From Austwickia chelonae (GTDB lineage Bacteria; Actinomycetota; Actinomycetes; Actinomycetales; Dermatophilaceae), in assembly GCF_003391095.1 (NCBI RefSeq), contig NZ_CP031447.1:1302001-1366000 (forward strand): a stretch of 64,000 bases of DNA. Reading direction: 5' to 3'. Shown in pieces: positions 57,563 to 57,747 of this stretch (within the stretch, counting starts at the first letter, position 1; each line of letters starts with the position of its first letter). A program made the position numbers and the translations under genes. Below the pieces are notes generated by a model that worked only from the letters and a program-made list of their open reading frames with translations, ran no database searches and was not told where the DNA came from.

Positions 57563-57593
57563 GTGGACGCACAGCGGTTTCTCTGGTTACCCT
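57563..57593 (+). promoter_or_regulatory. leuA leader promoter
   Basis: TACCCT (57588-57593) fits the TANNNT -10, with GTGGAC at 57563 as a weak -35 (spacer 19). It predicts a start close to base 57600, on or next to the leader ATG at 57601. Confidence 0.45.
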
Positions 57594-57600
57594 GACGGAC

Positions 57601-57669
57601 ATGATCTTCCCCGACATGCCGGGTATCGCACCCGGTAGGCGTCTTCTTCCTCGCCGCGACGAGGCCTGA
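57601..57669 (+). CDS. leuA leader peptide, 22 residues
   Basis: The ATG frame encodes MIFPDMPGIAPGRRLLPRRDEA and then stops. It has adjacent leucine codons CTT CTT (57643-57648), rare choices in this GC-rich genome where CTG and CTC dominate. No ribosome site precedes it, but a -10 lies 7 bases before the ATG, so it may be translated leaderless. It stands 78 bases before leuA and is followed by competing hairpins. This is the layout of a leucine attenuator. Only two leucines is few for such a peptide, so the call is inferred. Confidence 0.55.
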   Translation: MIFPDMPGIAPGRRLLPRRDEA

Positions 57670-57740
57670 CCGGCCAGGCCGCCCTCGTCGCGGAGATGCC
57701 GCTGCCCGCCAGCAGGCCTGGACATTTTCGACGAGGAAGA
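57654..57740 (+). promoter_or_regulatory. Candidate leuA attenuator: three mutually exclusive pairing segments
   Basis: Segment A (57654-57664, CCGCGACGAGG) is the exact complement of segment B (57683-57693, CCTCGTCGCGG). Segment C (57729-57736, CGACGAGG) is the exact complement of the first eight bases of B, and C runs into the leuA ribosome site GAGGAAGAG. Hence A:B and B:C cannot coexist. Leader bases 57645-57656, which overlap a leucine codon, can also pair with 57729-57740 with one mismatch. B:C would hide the ribosome site, A:B would free it. No T-run is present, which favours control of translation. Confidence 0.5.
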
Positions 57741-57747
57741 GAGCGTC

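Follow-up and report, generated by a model that had tools for sequence, protein, structure and literature searches.

How is leuA controlled in Austwickia? In the 64,000-nucleotide stretch of DNA analysed here (the window), leuA (57748..59556; this and all further features are on the plus strand unless stated) encodes a 2-isopropylmalate synthase of 602 amino acids with HMGL-like, IPMS_D2 and LeuA_dimer domains, and its 95% identity to the protein of A. chelonae NBRC 105200 places the window in an Austwickia species. An earlier note, made from the sequence, had proposed that a short upstream ORF regulates the gene through alternative RNA pairing. We consider it likely that Austwickia here carries its own LEU element of the actinobacterial kind and that this element works as a leucine-responsive translational attenuator of leuA. 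Its anatomy, conservation and covariation point to this class of element, and modelled ribosome positions suggest how a ribosome might translate the leader, stall in it and so open the leuA ribosome site.

According to Seliverstov, Putzer, Gelfand and Lyubetsky (2005; PMC1262725), a LEU element precedes leuA in most Actinobacteria and consists of a leader peptide with Leu codons, a base stem between these codons and the Shine-Dalgarno sequence, a pseudoknot and an alternative hairpin. The same paper cites mutations in the S. coelicolor leuA leader with effects at odds with classical attenuation; the authors favoured a binding protein and proposed orthologues of ML1624. Since 2005, the element has thus posed a puzzle: it is conserved, yet the mutation data did not fit attenuation.

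In the window, the leader ORF spans 57601-57669, with 22 codons and a stop, as the earlier note had read it. Codons 1-12 are ATG ATC TTC CCC GAC ATG CCG GGT ATC GCA CCC GGT, and codons 13 to the stop are AGG CGT CTT CTT CCT CGC CGC GAC GAG GCC TGA. The peptide, MIFPDMPGIAPGRRLLPRRDEA, ends in the pattern LLx(C/R)R(G/D)EA before its stop, common to 208/213 homologous leuA upstream regions, and the two putative sensor codons, CTT CTT, lie at 57643..57648; the last Leu codon is conserved in homologues. A -10-like box, TACCCT (57588..57593), ends 7 nt before the leader ATG, with a weak -35-like TGGACG at 57564-57569. The mRNA probably starts at the leader ATG, as had been predicted, and the S. lividans homologue is reported to be leaderless (PMC8079986). 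A TAnnnT box occurs 6-7 nt before the leader start in 74/100 representatives (background, 0.7% per position), a figure that is supportive rather than independent, since the leader start was chosen partly by this box. The leuA start codon follows 78 nt after the leader stop, leaving about 80 nt of untranslated RNA in between. Further upstream, between era and the leader, lies a minus-strand ORF (56917-57339) that matches a LysM domain (E 1e-5); it overlaps the 3′ end of era and may be a gene fragment.

Several pairings converge on this short stretch. Segment A, CCGCGACGAGG (57654-57664), the 5′ arm of hairpin P1, and segment B, CCTCGTCGCGG (57683-57693), its 3′ arm, are exact 11-bp complements; B can alternatively pair, through its first 8 nt, with an exact complement, segment C, CGACGAGG (57729-57736). 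Both pairings had been described in the earlier note, which overlooked the strongest long-range helix. In this base stem, GGCGTCTTCTTCCTCG (57638-57653), comprising the sensor codons and their neighbours, pairs with CGAGGAAGAGAGCGTC (57732-57747), just 5′ of the leuA ATG, so that the Leu codons pair directly with the ribosome site. The 3′ strand holds the leuA Shine-Dalgarno sequence, GAGGAAGAG (57733-57741), and the spacer to the start codon, and overlaps segment C by 5 nt. The helix has 15 bp with one mismatch and an energy of −22.2 kcal/mol (p 0.006, dinucleotide shuffles). In A. chelonae, two bases of its 3′ strand are changed with the pairs kept (U-A for U-G and G-C for G-U).

In the minimum free energy fold of the leader, the base stem and A:B occur together, and the whole-leader fold beats shuffled sequences (z = −3.0); among dinucleotide-shuffled leaders, 0.4% contain an exact inverted repeat of 11 bp. 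Inside the base stem, a 7-bp pseudoknot can link the strand CCAGGCC in the P1 loop (57674-57680) to GGCCTGG (57715-57721). No intrinsic terminator with a T-run was found in 57300-57900, in agreement with the earlier note. An Rfam search of the element returned no family at gathering score and no T-box among the weak hits, which places the element outside Rfam coverage.

To what extent is this architecture shared? We gathered leuA upstream regions across the class (n=213) and found the LEU element in 208. Among the five regions left unparsed, two (L004 and L032) have the element with a single Leu codon, and from three (L017, L183 and L215) it appears to be missing. With a covariance model, we recovered the element in 291/316 genomes of the class, saw mostly weak matches outside the class, and detected one copy in the genome of the window (E 3e-16). 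L004 and L032 come from Austwickia sp. TVS 96-490-7B, where the sensor run is cut to one CTT and hairpin A:B is kept. In L017, from the family of the window, leuA sits close behind era and the element is missing, a natural loss.

We assessed covariation with an alignment-free swapping test, in which the 5′ segment of each species was matched in silico with the 3′ segment of the same or of another species. Among 100 representatives, own partners paired better for A:B (z −12), for the pseudoknot loop and its downstream strand (z −6.4), for B and the ribosome-site region (z −5.1, p 5e-5) and for the base stem (z −3.3, p 0.001). Base-stem covariation was weaker when redundancy was removed more strictly (p 0.012 at 39 representatives) and was p 0.12 in 31 representatives outside the near clade. 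Control segments were not significant, except for one marginal case (p 0.04) in the 39-representative set. In 37 aligned homologues, 99.8% of A:B cells were paired, with compensatory changes at 3 pairs. When the base stem was scored in fixed columns of alignment A1, only 79.5% of the cells were paired, as some sequences are out of register by one codon; the swapping tests took the place of this evaluation. The earlier note had staked its reading on covariation of the pairing segments and conservation of CTT; both were found, and pairing and covariation centre on the leuA ribosome site, where it had located control.

How might these helices respond to leucine? Ribosome states were approximated by constraint folding with blocked leader positions, pseudoknots being ignored. 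For the leuA ribosome site of the window, the unpaired fraction was 0.11 in free RNA; a ribosome on the two Leu codons raised it to 0.39-0.42, and one at the stop to 0.16. The A. chelonae values were 0.12, 0.58 and 0.14, respectively. In this folding with the leader blocked or free, a check that had been proposed for this locus, the modelled site was more accessible with a ribosome on the Leu codons and stayed closed at the stop. The terminating-ribosome state had been expected to be closed by B:C; in the simple fold of the window, it is closed by the base stem instead, without B:C. Across the 100 representatives, a ribosome at codon −5 raised the unpaired fraction by 0.05 relative to the stop (p 0.007) and by 0.09 relative to free RNA (p 1e-5). 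These shifts agree with the model in direction, although they are small and constitute no proof.

In the mechanism that we propose, ribosomes would complete the leader and depart when leucine is sufficient. On ribosome-free RNA, the base stem (57638-57653 with 57732-57747) would enclose hairpin A:B and the pseudoknot, and leuA would be closed. A ribosome at the leader stop would cover A, and the base stem, possibly aided by B:C, would keep leuA closed. Should charged leucyl-tRNA run short, a ribosome held at CTT CTT would occupy the base-stem strand; the leuA ribosome site would therefore open and LeuA would be made. That ribosome stalling at the Leu codons frees the leuA site is the most likely reading, and this step is inferred.

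The sensor codons themselves are unusual. The last Leu codon of 208 leuA leaders is CTT in 195, CTC in 13 and CTG in none, and CTT makes up 0.9% of Leu codons in the leuA genes of 80 relatives. The two window codons had been called rare. This holds for the relatives; in four flanking genes of Austwickia, CTT accounts for 11/186 Leu codons (6%) and, against that background, is uncommon rather than very rare. Both backgrounds are small gene sets, not whole genomes. We rejected the notion that CTT is kept solely for pairing with the ribosome site, as CTC would pair better in 78/195 CTT cases. The use of rare CTT as the last sensor codon in 195/208 leuA copies is new here, and pairing with the ribosome site does not account for all of this preference. 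The run in the window is shorter than most, as three or more Leu codons are present in most homologues.

The covariance model also matched away from leuA, in some cases before second leuA genes. Gene names in these neighbourhoods (leuB, leuC and ilvE) are readings of the translations and of a LeuB search. Three elements with Leu codons in one Micrococcales family (L224, L225 and L233) lie directly upstream of leuC, the gene for the large subunit of isopropylmalate dehydratase. Elements near leuB-ilvE (L244-L271 and L294-L323) have leaders such as MTRQLVLLIASRGESQ, MLWSVRILSCRDEAR and MTRIFVLPSRGGAR, which contain codons for Val, Ile and Leu. These elements retain hairpin A:B and the pseudoknot with covariation (p 1e-4 each) and show no covariation with the ribosome site (p 0.68). 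Their codons are the rare GTA, ATT and CTT, which represent 1.0%, 1.8% and 0.9% of their codon families in the relatives' leuA genes. This rare-codon habit without ribosome-site covariation was the second reason for rejecting the notion that CTT is kept for pairing alone. Sensor codons track the pathway: leuA and leuC have Leu-Leu-Leu, and the elements beside leuB-ilvE have rare codons for Val, Ile and Leu. This match, read from sequence comparison, is the best evidence here that the element may sense its amino acids through translation of the leader.

The leuB-ilvE-linked elements precede a conserved ORF of 20-40 residues, M(S/T)EE...ALQE(S/A)MD(L/R)RD(Q/N)G. The ORF, recognized by its motif ALQE(S/A)MD(L/R)RD and present in 75/316 genomes of the class, had no match in Pfam or NCBIfam. 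The genome of the window has a copy, MSEEVREFRRAIQESLDLRDQGHS followed by a stop, at C1:951384-951455 on the plus strand (L305); the sequence upstream of it resembles a decayed leader (MPRLVRITLCRWEEQMGFAPSAF), with no clear element. This micro-protein gene, newly pointed out here, may be controlled by branched-chain amino acids. Our literature search, which covered open-licence papers, found no earlier report of the leuB-linked elements, and they are a more novel lead than the leuA element of the window. We lean towards placing the LEU element, as one branch, in a broader family of actinomycete leader-peptide RNAs, in which sensor codons are swapped to suit the downstream gene and rare U- or A-ending synonymous codons are the shared rule, the codon itself and not pairing alone being selected.

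Several points count against the attenuator model. Two Leu codons in Austwickia, and one in its sister species, make a weak sensor; the S. coelicolor mutants cited in PMC1262725 do not fit classical attenuation; the family-wide accessibility changes are small and come from a model that ignores pseudoknots; base-stem covariation weakens in less redundant sets; and Seliverstov et al. preferred a binding protein. Those mutants, together with the strong conservation and covariation of the pseudoknot, would be accommodated if a regulatory protein or ligand, putatively an ML1624 orthologue, read the pseudoknot and gated the leuA site, leader translation being incidental. Incidental translation would leave unexplained why the leader frame, the start-codon spacing and the sensor codons are all conserved, and the shift of codons to Val, Ile and Leu beside leuB-ilvE with the RNA fold kept is hard to explain without translation. 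We regard such control as unlikely, if still deserving some weight. Leader translation can couple to Rho, and stalled or absent ribosomes could alter Rho access or RNA polymerase pausing before leuA. In favour of this, about 80 nt of untranslated RNA follow the leader, and Rho coupling is suggested for cys leaders in PMC1262725. Against it, there is no intrinsic terminator, and both pairing and covariation are centred on the ribosome site; an effect on transcription appears improbable.

The exact arrangement of the earlier note, with B:C as the main closing helix and A:B as the opening one, has more in its favour than the 8-bp match: B covaries with the ribosome-site region, and many close relatives carry C-like GACGAG or GGCGAG motifs that fit their own B. 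An exact 8-mer of this kind arises in 2.2% of dinucleotide shuffles of the leader, and the p value of the B:C energy is about 0.05, making B:C weak by itself in one genome. A clear C motif (RCGAG) is present in only about 40% of homologues and absent in about 60%, and a plain count of C motifs against B gave a modest association only. The base stem is longer and stronger than B:C (−22.2 versus −14.7 kcal/mol), overlaps C and closes the stop-state fold on its own. We consider B:C unlikely to be the main closing helix; its role in hiding the ribosome site would be at most auxiliary or alternative. For the translational attenuator closed by the base stem, the near-universal occurrence, four covarying helices, a conserved rare sensor codon and pathway-tracking codons in relatives favour sensing through leader translation, and the comparative data supply exact helices and codons that can be tested.

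Among known systems, transcription attenuators of the trp/ilv type have a T-run terminator, which the leuA leader region here (57300-57900) lacks, and no T-box was recognized with Rfam models. In erm/cat-type translational attenuators, a ribosome stalled in the leader ORF exposes a hidden Shine-Dalgarno sequence. The logic proposed for leuA is the same, with no homology claimed; uncharged tRNA-Leu would take the place of an antibiotic as the signal, and, unlike in erm/cat, the stall codons themselves would form the sequestering strand. Leader peptides at leuA have also been reported in C. glutamicum (PMC4046766) and C. diphtheriae (PMC5784534). The S. lividans leader LeuL1, MRFGLLLLSCRGEGL, reported to be without a terminator (PMC8079986), shares the C-terminal pattern and hairpin, as judged from Streptomyces-like loci (L194-L200), whereas it has more Leu codons and a different downstream ribosome site. 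The closest likeness is to the LEU element as outlined in PMC1262725: an upstream ORF with Leu codons, a base stem, a pseudoknot and no terminator, located before leuA in an actinobacterium. The published element also has an alternative hairpin that shares the base stem; B:C, which overlaps the base stem here, may or may not correspond to it. The element in the window differs from its LEU-element relatives in having only two Leu codons, a leader of 22 rather than the usual 13-16 codons, a base-stem register one codon off most relatives (alignment A1) and a pseudoknot 3′ strand further downstream. With the testable defining features of the family all present, the element is not a new system; it is the Austwickia member of the known LEU-element family.
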